NCBI RefSeq assembly: GCF_024138145.1 | Contig: NZ_CP099997.1 | Span: forward strand, 930,001 to 994,000 | Direction of reading: 5' to 3' | DNA: 64,000 nucleotides | Source of the DNA: Natronosalvus halobius | GTDB taxonomy: Archaea; Halobacteriota; Halobacteria; Halobacteriales; Natrialbaceae | In this document: positions 46,830-53,852 of the stretch, piece by piece | Layout: each line of letters starts with the position of its first letter | Position numbering within the stretch: the stretch's first letter is position 1 | Translations under genes and position numbers: made by a program | Notes under the pieces: model-generated | Databases searched by the model: none | What the model was told of the DNA's origin: nothing | The model's input: only the letters and a program-made list of their open reading frames with translations

Positions 46830-47987
46830 ATGAATATCGCCGATATCGCCACCACGGAGTACATCGAGGTCGACGTCGGGACGCGAATGGGGAAAGTCCG
46901 TTCGACCTTCGAGGACGGCAACCCCAAGGGGCTGATCGTGACCAACGACGGAGAGTACGCTGGCGTCATCAGCGAGCGCGAGGTACTCCAGTCACACGTC
47001 GAAGACGACGCCAAGGTGGCGGCGTTGATCAAGCCGAGTCGCAACGACCCGGCGCCGAAAGTCGACCGGCACGAGGACGTCAGGGAGGTCGCCCGCATGC
47101 TCGTCGAGGGCAACACCAAGGTCGCACCGGTGTTCGAGGGCGAGAACCTCTGGGGCGTCATCACCGAGGACGACCTGCTCACTGCCGTCCTCGAGAACCT
47201 CGACGCGATCACCGTCGGCGACATCTACACGACCGACCCGATCACGCTCGCGGAGGACGACGGCGTCGGCAAGGCAATCAATCACCTGCGCGAACACGGT
47301 ATCTCCCGGCTCCCCGTGGTCAACGAGAACGGTTACCTGACCGGCGTCGTGACGACCCACGACATCGCCGACTTCGTCATCCGAGAAAACGAGCGCATGA
47401 CGACCGGCGACCGCGTCGGCGACAACGAGCGGATGCTCGACGTGCCGCTCTACGACATCATGAACAGCCCCGTAGTTACCACGACGGCCGACAAGACCGC
47501 TCGAGAGGCCGTCGAAACCATGCTCGAGGACGATTACGCCGGCCTGGTCGTCACGCCCGCAGACGACGACCGACTCATCGAGGGCGTCGTCACCAAGACC
47601 GACGTGCTCCGGGCGCTCACGTTCACCGAGGAAGAGCACATGGACGTCCAGATCACGAACATCTCGCTCATGGACACCATCTCCCGGGAGTCCATCGTCC
47701 AGAGCATCGAACAGGTCTCGGACAAGTACGCGGACATGCGGGTCCACCACGCCCACGTCCGCTTCCACGAGCACAAGGAGAAGCTCCGCGGCACGCCGCT
47801 AATCCAGTGTCAGATCCGCCTCCGAACGAACAAGTCCCAGGTCGCCGGCTCCGGCGAGGGCTACGGCGCGGAGAACTCGTTCAGGGTCGCCCTGGACAAA
47901 CTCGAGCGGAACGTCCTGGAGCTCAAGGGCGTCCGTAGCGACGAGGAGTACCGTGGGCAGTTACTCCGGAAGTTGAACGAACTCTAA
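46830..47987 (+). CDS. CBS-domain protein with S30AE/hibernation-factor-like C-terminus
   Basis: A 385-residue protein. Residues 1-265 hold four CBS repeats (ending pieces such as GVISEREVL, GVITEDDLL, GVVTTHDIA and GVVTKTDVL), which usually bind adenine nucleotides. Residues about 270-365 look like the ribosome-hibernation (S30AE/RaiA) fold. There is a first strand DVQITNISL, a helix SIVQSIEQVSDKY, strands VHHAHVRFHEH and IQCQIRLRTN, then GYGAENSFRVALDKLERNVLELK, matching the AID-KLERQL helix of that family. This suggests an energy-sensing ribosome-binding factor, but that is inference. A TATA-like TTAAATAG lies about 30 bases upstream. Confidence 0.85.
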   Translation: MNIADIATTEYIEVDVGTRMGKVRSTFEDGNPKGLIVTNDGEYAGVISEREVLQSHVEDDAKVAALIKPSRNDPAPKVDRHEDVREVARMLVEGNTKVAPVFEGENLWGVITEDDLLTAVLENLDAITVGDIYTTDPITLAEDDGVGKAINHLREHGISRLPVVNENGYLTGVVTTHDIADFVIRENERMTTGDRVGDNERMLDVPLYDIMNSPVVTTTADKTAREAVETMLEDDYAGLVVTPADDDRLIEGVVTKTDVLRALTFTEEEHMDVQITNISLMDTISRESIVQSIEQVSDKYADMRVHHAHVRFHEHKEKLRGTPLIQCQIRLRTNKSQVAGSGEGYGAENSFRVALDKLERNVLELKGVRSDEEYRGQLLRKLNEL

Positions 47988-48079: not shown

Positions 48080-48778
48080 CTACGGCCGAGCGTCGTCGGC
48101 ACCTTCGAGCCCCGACCCCGTGATCCGGAACGTCGCCGACTCGCCCGCCGGTTTCGAGCGGTGTTTCGTGAGCGTCGCCCGACGATTGCCGGCGCGGAAA
48201 CGCTCGAGGCGGATCACCACGCCCGTCCAGTGCTCCAGGGTGTTCCCCCCGAGTGGGCGCGTCCGGTCGCTATCGGGATCAGCGAACACCTGGTTCGTGA
48301 CGACCACCGCGAGGTCGTGCTTGCGCGCGAGCGAGAGCAGGTGGGTAATCTGGCTGGCCACCTGACGGAGGGCGTCGCCCGCCTCGCCGTCTTCGGCGCG
48401 CTCGATTCGGTAGAAGCCGGTCGCGCTGTCCAGGACGACCAGGTCGGCCTGGGTTGCGAAGTCCGCAGTGTCGCGCACGGCCTCGGCCTGCTCGTCGAAG
48501 TCGTAGGCGTCCTCGATGATGATCCTGGAGGCGACCGACTCGACGTCGTCGGTGCGAGCGGAGAGGAGCTGTTCGAATCGATCGACCGAGACGCCTTCGG
48601 TATCGATGAAGACGGCCGTACCACCGGCGACGGCCGTCTCGACGGCGGCCGACAGCGCGAGGTTCGTCTTCCCCGACGCTGGCGGGCCGTACAGCTGCGT
48701 GACTGCTCCGCGTTCGAACCCGCCCTCGAGCAACGCGTCGACCGGGGGACAGCCGGTCGATATCGCCTCGTCGTTCAC
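48080..48778 (-). CDS. radB: DNA repair and recombination protein RadB
   Basis: A 232-residue RecA-family ATPase, the archaeal RadB paralogue of RadA. Walker A is GPPASGKTNLA near residue 33 and the Walker B region is ADLVVLDSA. VVTNQVFADPD and GGNTLEHWTGVVIRL are the typical RadB/RadA L2-side motifs. RadB assists RadA in recombination. A GTG start at 48778 gives VNDEAISTGCPPVDALLEGG. Longer frames run into the divergent promoter. It is divergent from an RNase H-like protein gene. Confidence 0.93.
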   Translation of the reverse strand: MNDEAISTGCPPVDALLEGGFERGAVTQLYGPPASGKTNLALSAAVETAVAGGTAVFIDTEGVSVDRFEQLLSARTDDVESVASRIIIEDAYDFDEQAEAVRDTADFATQADLVVLDSATGFYRIERAEDGEAGDALRQVASQITHLLSLARKHDLAVVVTNQVFADPDSDRTRPLGGNTLEHWTGVVIRLERFRAGNRRATLTKHRSKPAGESATFRITGSGLEGADDARP

Positions 48779-48872
48779 GCGCTCAGTTGGGAGGTCGCGG
48801 GCAAAAACCCCCCGGAACCGATCGCTCGTCCGGAGACGGAGCAATTTATTCGGTGGCGGTCGAAGCGGGACT

Positions 48873-49679
48873 ATGATCGTCGTCGCCACCGCGGACTTCG
48901 AAGTGTACCACGAGGTCGTCGCCGACCTTCGCGAGCGAGGTGCGACGTTCACGACGATCGAGCCCGACGATCCGCTCCCGTCGAAAACCGTCGTCGTCCT
49001 CACCGGCGCAGAACACGCCAAATCGTTCGGGGATGCCGACGCGCCGACCATCGTCGTGGACCCCGACGACAGCCGACAGGCGGTCGATCAGGCGCTGGCG
49101 ACCATTCGCGGTGAGCACGGTCGAACCGTCGTCGGCGTCGACCCCGGCCGCCAACCCGGCATTGCCGTGCTCGCCGGAGAAACCGTCGTCGCCGCGTTCC
49201 AGGTACCGCTGGGGGACGCCGTTGACGTCGTCCTGGAGGAGGTCCGCGGCGACGACGCCGTCGACCCGGTCGTCCGCATCGGCGACGGGTCGCGCCTGGA
49301 GGGAGCCAAACTGATCAACGAACTCGAGGACGTCCGCGTCGAGATGGTCGACGAGACGGGGACGACGCCGTACCTCGGCACCGGCGCTCGAGGAATGGGT
49401 GACGTCCTCGCGGCGGTGAACATCGCCCGTCTCGAGGGCGAGGCGATCGACACACGCGAGATCGAACCGACGCCGGGAGAGCTCCAGGTGATCAAGGACC
49501 GCTCGCGCGAGCGGAGTGAGACGAATCGGGCGATCGACGAGGCCCTGGCCAGGCGGGTCGCGTGTGGCGAGTTGACGGTCGAGGAGGCGCTCGCGGTGCA
49601 TCGAAACGATGGTAACGACGGCGGCGGGGGAGATGTCCCCGACAGAAGAGACGGCAACGATAACGGCGATGTGAACTGA
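48873..49679 (+). CDS. RNase H/RuvC-like fold protein of unknown function
   Basis: A 268-residue protein. Residues 1-75 look like a small alpha/beta domain (MIVVATADFEVYHEVV to TIVVDPDDSRQAVDQAL). From about residue 84 there is GRTVVGVDPGRQPGIAVLAGETVV, like the first two strands of RuvC/YqgF nucleases with the acidic residue after strand one. IGDGSRLEGAKLINEL and VEMVDETGTTPYLGTG resemble later YqgF-type elements. A nuclease or a structural protein in recombination is plausible because the gene is divergent from radB. The last 30 residues are Asn/Asp/Gly-rich and probably disordered. Confidence 0.7.
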   Translation: MIVVATADFEVYHEVVADLRERGATFTTIEPDDPLPSKTVVVLTGAEHAKSFGDADAPTIVVDPDDSRQAVDQALATIRGEHGRTVVGVDPGRQPGIAVLAGETVVAAFQVPLGDAVDVVLEEVRGDDAVDPVVRIGDGSRLEGAKLINELEDVRVEMVDETGTTPYLGTGARGMGDVLAAVNIARLEGEAIDTREIEPTPGELQVIKDRSRERSETNRAIDEALARRVACGELTVEEALAVHRNDGNDGGGGDVPDRRDGNDNGDVN

Positions 49680-49716: not shown

Positions 49717-49795
49717 GATGCCCAAAGCTATAGAAAATATATCTTATTACTACGCCATATGCATCAAATATTATAGAATATATAGTTTTAGCATC
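49717..49795. repeat. AT-rich inverted repeat between convergent genes
   Basis: An 80-base AT-rich stretch (many TATA and TTAT runs) is bounded by GATGCCCAAAGCTATA (49717-49732) and TATAGTTTTAGCATC (49781-49795). The two pair as an imperfect inverted repeat with a one-base offset. It fills the gap between the RNase H-like gene and larC, whose stop lies inside the right arm. It could end transcription from both sides or be the relic of a small transposable element. Confidence 0.55.
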
Positions 49796-51389
49796 AGGAC
49801 GAACGTTCCGCCCAGAACGCCCGCTCCGCTCGAGCCACGACGGACTGAATCGGCTCACCTGTCTCGGCGGCGACGGCCGCGGCGTCGTCGTACTCCGCGC
49901 TCGCATCGTAGACATCGCCGGCCTCGTCGCTCGCCACCTTGACCGTCACCTCGTAGGCGTCGCCGCCGACTTCGAGACTCACCGTCTCGAACCCGCGCCG
50001 GGCGATCCAGCGGTGGGTGACGCCGGCGTCGCGGATTCCGAGCGTTCCCGTCTCCTCGGCGAGCCTCCGGGCAACGCGTTCCCTGTCGGCGGGTCTGCAG
50101 ATCACCTTGACCAGGTGGCCCGGCCGGGACTTCTTCATGGTGACTGGGCCGATGGAAACGTCTCGAGCGCCCGCGTCCGAGAGCGTCTCCTGGAGGCCGC
50201 CGAGCACTTCGGGGGTCGCGTCGTCGAGATTCGTCTCCAGGACGGCGATGTCCTCGCGCTGGAGGGTCCCGCGAGTCGTCCCGACCAGCGCGCGGAGAAC
50301 GTTCGGGTGCGGATCGAGGTCGTAGCCACCGGCGCCGTAGCCTGCGTTTTCGACGTTCATCGTCGGCAGAGTCTCGATTCCCTCGGCGACGTGGGCAAGG
50401 ATAGCGGCCCCCGTCGGTGTCAGTAGTTCCGCCTCGACCGGGCCGCCGGAGAGTTCCCAGTCGGCCCGCTTTACTATGTCCAGGACGGCTGGGGCGGGGA
50501 TTGGGTACTCGCCGTGGCTCATCGAGACGGTGCCGCCGCCGGCCGAGATGGGTGTCGTGACGACGCGGTCGACCTCGAGGTCGTGTATCAGTAGTACGGT
50601 ACCGACGACGTCCGCGATGGCGTCGTCGGCGCCCACCTCGTGGAAGTGGATCGACTCGATGTCGGTTCCGTGGACGGCGGCCTCCGCTTCGCCGAGTCGT
50701 TCGAAGATGGCGAGGGCGTCGGCTTCGACCGGCTCCTCGAGGCCCATGTTTCGGACGATGTCGCAGACCTCGAGGTAGCTCCGGTGAGGGCCGTGGCCTT
50801 CGGCGTGGACGTGGCCGTCAGCTTCGTGATCGTGATGGTGGTCGTGGTCGTCTCCGTGGCTGTGGTCGTGATGGTGATAGTGGCCGTTTCCGTGGCCGTG
50901 GTCGTGGCTATTATCGGCGGTGTGGTCGTGATAGTGGTCGTGGCTGTTATCGGCGGTGTGGTCGTGGCCGTCTCCGTGGCTGTGGTCGTGATAGTGGTCG
51001 TGGCTATTATCGGCGGTGTGGTCGTGGTCGTGGTCGTTTCTATGGCCGTGGGCATGGCCGTGATCGTCTCCATGGTGATCGCCCGCAACCTCACTTTCGG
51101 AACCTTGCCCGTGCACACCGTCGTCCTTATATTCGTCCCCGCGCTCTACATCGTCGTGACGGGGTGCCTCGATGTGGGCGTCCTGGCTGCTGGAGGTGGG
51201 GATCACGACGTCGACCGTCGTCGCGTGAATTCCACACTTCGAGGTGCGCCCGATACGATACTCGACATCGAGCGCGCGCTCGACAGGTTCGAGGGCCGCC
51301 CGGTCAGCCCCGGCGGCGAGCAGGGCGGCGAGCAGCATGTCGCCGCTTGCGCCCATCCGGCCGTCGAAGGCGAGCAGTCTCCTGGTCAT
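49794..51389 (-). CDS. larC: LarC-family nickel insertion protein with long His-rich insert
   Basis: A 531-residue protein of the LarC (DUF111) family, which inserts nickel into the pincer cofactor of lactate racemase-type enzymes. The start LLAFDGRMGASGDMLLAALLAAGAD and the later HFHEVGADDAIADVVGTVLLIHDLEVDRV and IAVLETNLDDATPEVLGGLQETLSDAGARDVSIGPVTMKKSRPGH are family hallmarks. Residues about 105-202 form a His/Asp-rich insert, with DHTADNSH three times, likely a nickel store. Other lar genes are absent from the window. The ATG at 51389 is used. Confidence 0.92.
   Translation of the reverse strand: MTRRLLAFDGRMGASGDMLLAALLAAGADRAALEPVERALDVEYRIGRTSKCGIHATTVDVVIPTSSSQDAHIEAPRHDDVERGDEYKDDGVHGQGSESEVAGDHHGDDHGHAHGHRNDHDHDHTADNSHDHYHDHSHGDGHDHTADNSHDHYHDHTADNSHDHGHGNGHYHHHDHSHGDDHDHHHDHEADGHVHAEGHGPHRSYLEVCDIVRNMGLEEPVEADALAIFERLGEAEAAVHGTDIESIHFHEVGADDAIADVVGTVLLIHDLEVDRVVTTPISAGGGTVSMSHGEYPIPAPAVLDIVKRADWELSGGPVEAELLTPTGAAILAHVAEGIETLPTMNVENAGYGAGGYDLDPHPNVLRALVGTTRGTLQREDIAVLETNLDDATPEVLGGLQETLSDAGARDVSIGPVTMKKSRPGHLVKVICRPADRERVARRLAEETGTLGIRDAGVTHRWIARRGFETVSLEVGGDAYEVTVKVASDEAGDVYDASAEYDDAAAVAAETGEPIQSVVARAERAFWAERSS
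50904..51026 (-). repeat. 27-base repeat encoding the His-rich stretch of LarC
   Basis: A 27-base unit, identical except for one base, occurs at 50904-50930, 50940-50966 and 51000-51026 (plus-strand coordinates). It encodes HDHTADNSH on the minus strand. The gaps of 9 and 33 bases keep the frame. The repeat makes this part of the gene prone to length change. Confidence 0.85.
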
Positions 51390-51620
51390 AGCTAGGACGG
51401 CGGGCAGCGTGACCAAAAACCCACGCACTCCCGCACAGGGAAAGACCGTCGTTCCGTCTCGGAAAACGACCGAGGCCGGTACATCTATGTAGCTCCCTGA
51501 CTCAGTCACATATGACAGGCGCTAGCACAGGTGCGTTCGCGGTTCGTATGCGTCTGCTGTGAGCAAAACACCTATCCGACACCGAGTCGGAGTCAGGAAC
51601 ATCCCCGTCTACCCCAAACC

Positions 51621-53852
51621 ATGAACGAAGTGCAACTGGAGGTCGCGAAAGCGTACCCGAACGACTCGGGCCGCGGCATCGCCCGTCTCGACCCGGACAC
51701 CTTGCTTCACCTGAAGCTGAGTCCGGGCGACATCATCGAGATCGAAGGGTCGGAGACGACCGCTGCAAAGGTCTGGCGTGCGGACCGACAGGACTGGAAC
51801 ACGGACACCGTCCGCATCGACGGGTTCACCCGCCAGAACGCCGACGTCGGCATCGGCGAGCGCGTCACGATTCGGAAGGCCGAGGCGACGAAGGCGAACA
51901 CGCTGGTGCTCGCTCCCCCGGAGGAGGCCTCCGTCCAGTTCGGCTCCGACGCCGCCGGCATGGTGAAACGCCAGATCCTCAAGCGGCCAGTCGTCGGCCA
52001 CGACATCGTCCCCGTGATGAGTTCGACGAACCACCCGTTCATGCGCTCGCCGGGCCAGGCAATCCCGCTGATCGCCGTCGAAACCGATCCCGAGGGCGTC
52101 GTCCTCATCACCGAGGATACCGACGTCGAACTTCGCGAGGAGCCCATCTCGGGCTTCGAGAAGACCGGCGGCGGGATCACCTACGAGGACATCGGTGGCC
52201 TCCAGAACGAGATCCAGCGCGTCCGCGAGATGGTCGAACTGCCGATGAAACACCCCCAGATCTTCAAGAAGCTGGGAATCGAGCCCCCGCAAGGGGTGCT
52301 CCTGCACGGCCCGCCGGGGACGGGCAAGACGCTGCTCGCGAAGGCCGTCGCCAACGAGACCTCTGCCAGTTTCTTCTCCATCGCCGGCCCCGAGATCATC
52401 TCGAAGTACTACGGCGAGTCCGAACAACAGCTCCGCGAAATTTTCGAAGACGCCAGCGAGGAGTCTCCCGCGATCATCTTCATCGACGAACTCGACTCCA
52501 TCGCCCCCAAGCGCGAGGACGTCACCGGCGAGGTCGAACGCCGCGTCGTCGCCCAGTTGCTGACCATGATGGACGGCCTCGAGGCTCGCGGCCAGGTGAT
52601 CGTCATCGCCGCGACCAACCGCGTCGACAGCGTCGACCCCGCCCTCCGCCGGCCCGGCCGGTTCGACCGCGAGATCGAGATCGGCGTCCCGGACGAGGTC
52701 GGCCGTGAGGAGATTCTGCAGATCCACACCCGGGGTATGCCGCTCTCCGACGACGTCAACCTCTCGCACCTGGCCGACGAGACCCACGGCTTCGTCGGCG
52801 CGGACATCGAGAGTCTGACCAAAGAATCCGCGATGAAGGCCCTGCGGCGGTACCTCCCGGAGATCGACCTGGACGAGGAGGACATCCCGCCGAGCCTGAT
52901 CGACCGGATGATCGTCAAGCGCGAGGACTTCCGCGGCGCTCTCGCCGAGGTCGAACCGTCGGCGATGCGGGAAGTCCTCGTCGAGTTGCCGAAGGTTAGC
53001 TGGGACGACGTCGGCGGGCTCGACGAGGCGAAAGATCAGGTCAAGGAGTCCGTCGAGTGGCCCCTGCGCGAGCCCCAGAAGTTCGAGCGGATGGGCATCG
53101 ACCCACCCGCGGGCGTCTTGCTGTACGGCCCGCCGGGCACCGGAAAGACGCTCATGGCAAAGGCCGTCGCCAACGAGACCAACGCCAACTTCATCTCGGT
53201 TCGCGGCCCACAGTTGCTCAGCAAGTGGGTCGGCGAGTCCGAGAAAGCCATCCGTCAGACCTTCCGGAAGGCCCGGCAGGTCTCCCCAACGGTGATCTTC
53301 TTCGACGAACTCGACTCGCTCGCCCCCGGCCGCGGCGGCGAGGTCGGGTCGAACGTCTCCGAACGCGTCGTCAACCAGCTACTGACCGAACTCGACGGCC
53401 TCGAGGAGATGGAGGACGTGATGGTGATCGGTGCGACGAACCGCCCGGACATGATCGACCCGGCCCTCCTCCGGTCGGGCCGCTTCGACCGGCTGGTCAT
53501 GCTCGGCGAACCAAACACTGAGGGTCGCGAACGAATCCTCGAAATCCACACCGACGACACGCCCCTGGCCGCGGACGTCAGCTTGCGCGAGATCGCCGAG
53601 ATCACGGAGGGGTACGTGGGCAGCGACCTCGAGTCGATCGGCCGGGAGGCAGCGATCGAGGCGCTCCGCGAGGACGACGACGCCGATCTCGTCGAGATGC
53701 GCCACTTCCGGAAAGCGATGGAAAACGTGCGCCCGACGATCAACGAGGACATCCTCGAGTACTACGATCAGATCGAACAGCAGTTCAAGGGCGGTGGAAA
53801 CAGGGTCGAACCCGGCACGGGTCGCCGGGGAAGTCGTATCGGGTTCCAGTAA
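51621..53852 (+). CDS. Cdc48/VCP-type AAA+ ATPase (second copy)
   Basis: A 743-residue tandem AAA+ unfoldase of the Cdc48 family. The N domain covers about residues 1-185 ([20 protein letters not shown]). D1 Walker A GPPGTGKT is near residue 230 with [12 protein letters not shown] after it. D2 has [22 protein letters not shown] and [12 protein letters not shown]. The end [10 protein letters not shown] is short and basic, unlike the first copy's acidic tail. The ATG at 51621 is used. Frames upstream to 51531 are Cys-rich and not family-like. It is monocistronic. The pair of copies suggests different partners. Confidence 0.96.

Follow-up and report, generated by a model that had tools for sequence, protein, structure and literature searches.

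An archaeal RNase H-fold protein with a RuvX-type set of acids, encoded back to back with radB

Introduction

What does the gene do that shares its upstream region with radB in the haloarchaeon Natronosalvus halobius? RadB is described as a recombination mediator in Haloferax volcanii (PMC5480776, PMC7776575), and the gene on the other side of the spacer (here T, for target gene) had been given a plausible junction-processing or DNA-repair role in a preliminary description of the sequence. We followed up this suggestion in the surrounding 64,000 nucleotides (the window; contig NZ_CP099997.1, positions 930,001 to 994,000; G000:C1:930001-994000) and in homologous archaeal loci. No functional study of the T family was found in the literature searched, which is not proof that none exists.

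Gene structure and predicted fold

T covers positions 48873 to 49679 of the plus strand and encodes a protein of 268 amino acids with a RuvX-type RNase H domain, as delimited from the open reading frame listing and from homologues. The open frame itself runs from 48516 to 49679, and the protein is placed at 48873-49679 because the conserved start MIVVAT sits at the ATG at 48873; a 387-aa protein beginning at 48516 was ruled out by the same conserved start. Searching the genome returned T as its own sole match, i.e., the gene is present in a single copy.

An AlphaFold2 model based on 43 homologues (pLDDT 86.9, pTM 0.64) predicts an alpha/beta domain, an RNase H fold and a helical tail. The N-terminal alpha/beta domain (residues 1-80; 48873..49112, plus strand) is PurE- and receiver-like. 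When modelled alone (pLDDT 92.4), its best structural match is PurE 2ywx (Z 9.3, rmsd 2.0, 80 aligned), but it fits many alpha/beta folds (PurE, PTS IIB, receiver; Z 7-9), and therefore no function follows from it. The RNase H-fold domain (residues about 84-186; 49122..49430, plus strand) is modelled in the order beta1 84-90, beta2 96-101, beta3 104-110, a helix, beta4 130-137, a helix, beta5 156-159 and a helix at 175-186. In the tail, a C-terminal helical segment (residues 201-249; 49473..49619, plus strand) carries a SHOCT-like 'GELTxEEAL' and yields weak, sub-threshold SHOCT-like Pfam matches.

Foldseek gave no match to the model at E ≤ 0.001. Its candidates, realigned over residues about 79-196, produced a series of near ties at the top: the IS621 recombinase 8wt6 (Z 11.3, rmsd 3.5, 110 aligned), Deinococcus radiodurans YqgF 7w89 (Z 11.2, rmsd 2.8, 101 aligned, 25% identity), Tex 3bzk (Z 11.1, rmsd 4.1, 107 aligned, 24% identity), a phage terminase nuclease (Z 10.6, rmsd 3.0, 106 aligned) and RuvC 4ep5 (Z 10.0, rmsd 3.8, 106 aligned). 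The further YqgF/RuvX structures 1nu0 (Z 8.8, rmsd 2.5, 94 aligned) and 1vhx (Z 8.5, rmsd 3.0, 103 aligned) matched with lower scores. Neither this list nor that for the N-terminal domain is taken as excluding families not listed. Although the RuvC-like domain of the bridge-RNA recombinase IS621 shares the fold, IS621 is a mobile-element recombinase, whereas T is single-copy in this genome and no second catalytic domain was seen in it. The predicted model thus has the RNase H fold of RuvX/YqgF proteins, and the earlier assignment of T as RNase H-like was borne out by the model and its structural matches.

Active-site acids

The first motif, VGVDPGRQPGIAVL, spans residues 87-100. Its YqgF-like character, proposed beforehand, held up: the first putative catalytic acid, D90 at the end of beta1 (codon 49140..49142), is found in 164/164 distinct homologues from two archaeal groups (197 domain hits minus identical strings and pieces shorter than 150 aa, with close relatives and differing extents of one protein counted apart). 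The second, E161, lies just after beta5 at the RuvX position (49353..49355; 162/164), and the third, D177, in the C-terminal helix of the RNase H domain (49401..49403; 159/164); all three codons are on the plus strand. The complete set occurs in 158 homologues, and the remaining six are without at least one acid in the alignment. Four short Thermoplasmata members have Asn at 177 and Asp one residue earlier. Most of the helical tail is missing from the short Thermoplasmata forms at L228-L231 (214-220 aa), whose helix acid is displaced by one residue.

When T was aligned with a small profile of four RuvX sequences in hhalign, D90 paired with D9 of YqgF, E161 with the Glu in its 'DER' and D177 with the Asp of its helix; the match itself is not significant (probability 0.2%, E 0.27). 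RuvX/YqgF proteins (PF03652, COG0816) have their acids at beta1, at the end of beta5 and in the last helix, and need none at beta4; T shows this layout in register. RuvC resembles T in its fold and in an Asp-led first motif, but its catalytic residues are a Glu that closes beta4 and a pair in the last helix (as given in PMC9601230). This catalytic Glu is absent from T: position 138, where beta4 ends, is D in 96, H in 51, N in 14, S in 2 and R in 1 of the 164 homologues, with D in 94/136 Halobacteriota rows as against 2/28 Thermoplasmata rows. In both RuvX and Tex, the acid is described as having moved to beta5 from its beta4 position (PMC3985635, PMC9601230). In the predicted model, T is therefore an RNase H-fold protein with an active site of RuvX rather than RuvC type.

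In D. radiodurans YqgF (DrYqgF), the residues corresponding to these acids are reported to be required for nuclease activity, mutation of D22, E106 or D122 impairing or blocking cleavage (PMC9601230). Together with the three retained acids and their RuvX arrangement, these mutant effects make it likely that T is an active nuclease.

Distribution and family membership

Within the window's class, 236/292 genomes encode a homologue of T, as do 166/200 genomes of a Thermoplasmata class, that of the metagenome-assembled genome (MAG) G603. Given this spread within the class and the Asp present in every distinct homologue, the first motif is more than a chance resemblance. Across the phylum, 118/392 genomes match the T alignment at E ≤ 0.001, a count that includes short weak matches, many of them inside open frames of DUF460 size; the match is strong in 61 haloarchaeal genomes and in 28 others spanning seven families. 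Named relatives among 66 loci come from haloarchaea, from Methanoperedens and its kin and from one Thermoplasmata MAG. Owing to this range, we regard T as an old euryarchaeal family and not as a haloarchaeal oddity.

T had been described as apparently unassigned, and as to curated families this is correct. In Pfam, besides a DUF460 match below cut-off (see below), T gave one chance-level match, and in NCBIfam nothing exceeded the cut-off. When homologues were scanned one by one (24 against Pfam, 43 against NCBIfam), no named family emerged; Csa3_N appeared below threshold in 7 of the 24. A PDB sequence profile search was uninformative, with two matches at E 0.09 and E 0.15, of which one carries the label of a designed protein. 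RuvX models of Pfam and NCBIfam were listed neither for T nor for the members scanned. T also differs from YqgF/RuvX in its extra N-terminal alpha/beta domain and helical tail and in being archaeal. Since no RuvX sequence model recognises it, we do not count T as a RuvX member.

Conservation of the radB pairing

The neighbouring gene (48080..48778, minus strand, GTG start) scores 413 bits against the RadB model NF006861 of NCBIfam (cut-off 278) and 259.8 bits against a second RadB equivalog (cut-off 172.4). Its preliminary naming as radB was thus confirmed, as was its divergent arrangement with T across a gap of 94 bases. Both genes lie in a larger block: a CBS-domain protein gene (46830..47987, plus strand) on the radB side, and, beyond T, the convergent 3′ neighbour larC for nickel insertion (49794..51509, minus strand) and a gene for a Cdc48-family AAA ATPase (51531..53852, plus strand). 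The start of larC is probably 51389 instead of 51509, as the Pfam match begins at residue 46; its open frame contains a long His/Asp-rich stretch of HDH repeats, perhaps nickel-binding. For the Cdc48 gene, the ATG at 51621 (MNEVQLEV...) is the likely start, CDC48_N beginning at residue 35.

Of 57 T-bearing genomes examined in the phylum, 43 carry a divergent radB at most 4 kb from T, and in 40 the distance does not exceed 1 kb. The sample draws 29 haloarchaeal genomes from the 61 that match T in full, taking only 1 of 19 in the family of the window, and includes all 28 non-haloarchaeal genomes with a strong match. Within 4 kb, the pairing is present in 27/29 haloarchaeal genomes (8 families) and in 16/28 of the others, where it is complete in families f12 (7/7), f17 (1/1), f19 (4/4) and f25 (4/4) and missing from f22 (0/5), f34 (0/4) and f38 (0/3), i.e., 0/12 T-bearing genomes. 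To these counts, G310 contributed a T fragment and G333 a radB fragment that scored under cut-off; the two radB pieces of G014 were treated as a single span. T and radB are far apart in the T-bearing genomes G017 and G049. A gene adjoining T in Methanoperedens (L084) was considered as a radB candidate and discarded, as it encodes a DUF7504/KaiC-like protein.

Among 38 haloarchaeal loci with at least 4.9 kb of upstream sequence, 28 have a divergent radB no more than 200 bases from T; the number rises to 34 at 1 kb and to 36 at 4 kb, and 32 of the loci have the CBS gene within 4.5 kb. Downstream, larC (within 4 kb) and Cdc48 (within 4.5 kb) each occur in 13 of the 38 haloarchaeal loci with at least 4 kb available; larC and/or Cdc48 also accompany the T-radB pair in other families (L129, L133, L135, L139). 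Outside the phylum the picture differs: comparing the coordinates of both searches, we found radB next to T in 0/21 of the Thermoplasmata genomes examined (of 166 T-bearing), though 19/21 have a RadB above cut-off. The link between T and radB is hence real but lineage-bound. It lies within an older block of the order CBS-radB-T-larC-Cdc48, so part of its persistence may be inertia.

The acids and the pairing had been named beforehand as the points to check, and both are there: T keeps RuvX-arranged acids, and the pairing with radB is kept across many families. The gene, its fold model, the conserved acids and the conserved divergent pairing are established.

Haloarchaea without T offer a view from the other side. 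All 20 genomes examined, of 56 lacking T, retain radB, from which it follows that RadB does not need T. In three such loci (L172, L175, L181), radB lies beside Cdc48 with the CBS gene on its other side and no T in between; this closure of the block reads as a clean loss of T, and the three could serve as natural knock-outs when repair capacity is compared.

The shared spacer

The spacer common to T and radB (48779..48872) separates both starts and was compared across 66 distinct haloarchaeal spacers. On the T side, a box rich in A+T (TTTAT-like) is conserved at -29 to -25 relative to the start codon; in the window it is represented by the TATA-like TTTATT at -28 to -23 (48845..48850, plus strand), at a conserved position that suggests a promoter of leaderless type. 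On the radB side, GTTcCGGGGgcTTTTTGC is conserved at about -40 to -23, a numbering that is approximate in 18 spacers, as the extrapolated radB start is GTG in 48/66. The corresponding promoter-like element in the window, TTCCGGGGGGTTTTTG (48802..48817, minus strand), is conserved in haloarchaeal spacers and is its own only exact match in the genome. BRE elements have an A-rich consensus, which GTTcCGGGGgcTTTTTGC does not resemble. Judged by sequence, the spacer would most simply be read as two facing leaderless-type promoters. A regulon sharing the radB element was rejected at the stringency applied, with one exact and two one-mismatch genome matches as compared to 1 for a backwards control.

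DNA or RNA as substrate

We tentatively favour T being a RuvX/YqgF-type metal-dependent nuclease that most likely acts on recombination-repair or replication intermediates beside RadB and RadA. D90, E161 and D177 would hold a divalent metal in the RNase H fold, and T would cut nucleic acid as a stand-alone enzyme. Oligomerisation, or the selection of partner and substrate, would probably fall to the helical tail and the alpha/beta domain at the N-terminus. T would most likely trim or cut branched or hybrid intermediates that arise in recombination-dependent repair and replication. Cutting, DNA as the substrate and action with RadB are what we infer here, from the acids, from the structural matches to YqgF and Tex and from the divergent radB in 43/57 genomes.

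Further contexts of T also speak for repair. A FEN1 gene lies upstream of T on the same strand, about 300 bases off, in both f22 loci fetched (L134, L137). A gene for a RecJ-like DHH/DHHA1 protein directly precedes T in 4 of 19 Thermoplasmata loci, two of 21 (L216, L232) being left out as no T was called there; two of these RecJ-like genes were scanned and exceed the Pfam cut-offs for DHH and DHHA1, while staying under that of the NCBIfam RecJ model (295 and 293 vs 360). In H. volcanii, HVO_2383 is RadB (PMC7776575), and, according to a personal communication quoted in PMC3820547, the CBS protein HVO_2384 binds RadA and RadB. As HVO_2382 is numbered between RadB and HVO_2381, which is listed as LarC family, it is probably the T orthologue. 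In 2023, HVO_2382 was mentioned among uncharacterized proteins of interest, its neighbourhood being analysed with Cdc48a (HVO_2380), in a work on the RecJ3/4-aRNase J complex in damage survival (PMC10470531).

Against a role in repair stand the missing radB linkage in f22, f34 and f38 and in all 21 Thermoplasmata genomes examined, the possible inertia of the block, the retention of radB in haloarchaea without T and the cutting of RNA by DrYqgF (PMC9601230); against the nuclease proposal, that six homologues are short of an acid, and that neither the RuvX profile match nor the Foldseek search reached significance. Of the preliminary interpretation, the fold, the first motif and the lack of a curated family stand. 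Its junction-processing role does not fare as well, considering the unlinked radB, its retention in the T-lacking haloarchaea and the reported inability of DrYqgF to cut Holliday junctions (PMC9601230).

The strongest competing explanation, which we consider possible, has T as an RNA nuclease and archaeal YqgF counterpart that would act on rRNA, in mRNA decay or on R-loops, with its radB pairing being old gene order. DrYqgF is reported as an RNA 5′-3′ exo/endonuclease which cuts no Holliday junctions and none of the structured DNA tested (PMC9601230), HVO_2384, the CBS protein, has a ribosome-hibernation-like domain (PMC12607858), and Cdc48a associates with the RecJ3/4-aRNase J complex, which degrades RNA and ssDNA (PMC10470531). 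The RecJ-like gene before T in the four Thermoplasmata loci comes after that of ribosomal protein S15. This RecJ-S15 order, already known (PMC3307487), mixes replication with translation and thus allows no choice between DNA and RNA. In L096, the gene after T encodes a glutamyl/glutaminyl-tRNA synthetase, and in L222 a homologue of that gene takes this place. FEN1 and radB, on the contrary, point to DNA, and the YqgF proteins of Helicobacter and Mycobacterium tuberculosis are stated to have been reported as junction resolvases (PMC9601230), so that the type of active site does not decide the substrate of T. The repair reading is accordingly reasonable but unproven, and a role on RNA nearly as likely.

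Other neighbours of T include, in the 19 Thermoplasmata loci, Cdc48 directly downstream (2) and DnaJ directly upstream (3). In the Methanoperedens loci, T and a DUF373 gene are convergent, and three f34 loci have a phosphorylase gene between the two.

Binding without cutting, and DUF460

Could T use its RNase H fold to bind without cutting, as is held for the domains of Tex and SPT6, and serve as a partner in regulation or as a scaffold? Both proteins do appear among the close structural matches, and PMC3985635 notes that nuclease activity had not been demonstrated for Tex or YqgF. However, Tex is described there as being without the third carboxylate, while T keeps all three acids in nearly every homologue, and DrYqgF has since been shown to cut (PMC9601230). 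Tex is also a chain of more than 700 residues, and the large multidomain architecture that surrounds the YqgF domain in Tex/SPT6 is absent from the 268 residues of T. We therefore consider a purely binding T unlikely.

DUF460 (PF04312, COG2433) resembles T in being archaeal and RNase H-like with a similar first motif; weak DUF460 matches appear in 22 of the 24 homologues scanned (best E 0.0057), and hhalign against 19 DUF460 sequences gives a probability of 94% (E 9e-8). Nevertheless, that T is a short form of DUF460 is very improbable and was rejected, since the window protein reaches 14.2 bits against a curated cut-off of 28, the beta4 Asp of DUF460 is not conserved in T, where hhalign aligns it to the invariant Gly137 (50/50 rows, L096 counted twice), and the same genome encodes a separate true DUF460 protein (L127, G000:C1:2492936-2493331, 171.6 bits). 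The open frames differ in size as well, with 290-714 residues for DUF460 in 18 genomes, most of them above 600, and about 250 for T. The L127 protein is itself another uncharacterised archaeal RNase H-like protein.

Implications

The T family is common in haloarchaea and Thermoplasmata and has no Pfam or NCBIfam model that recognises it at cut-off, yet it carries the full set of RuvX-type acids. If T is a nuclease of the RadB pathway, an unlisted enzyme would be added to archaeal recombination beside Hjc and Hef, which the H. volcanii table of a review gives as resolvases (PMC7776575). A bolder version, which we offer as speculation, would make T the RuvX that archaea had seemed to lack: a structure-selective nuclease of ancient euryarchaeal origin in the RadA/RadB pathway, expressed from a promoter back to back with that of radB and providing a second route beside Hjc and Hef for recombination intermediates or R-loops. 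Should T cut RNA instead, archaea would have their equivalent of an RNase that is widespread in bacteria. In both cases, T may be an overlooked part of nucleic-acid repair or processing in archaea.
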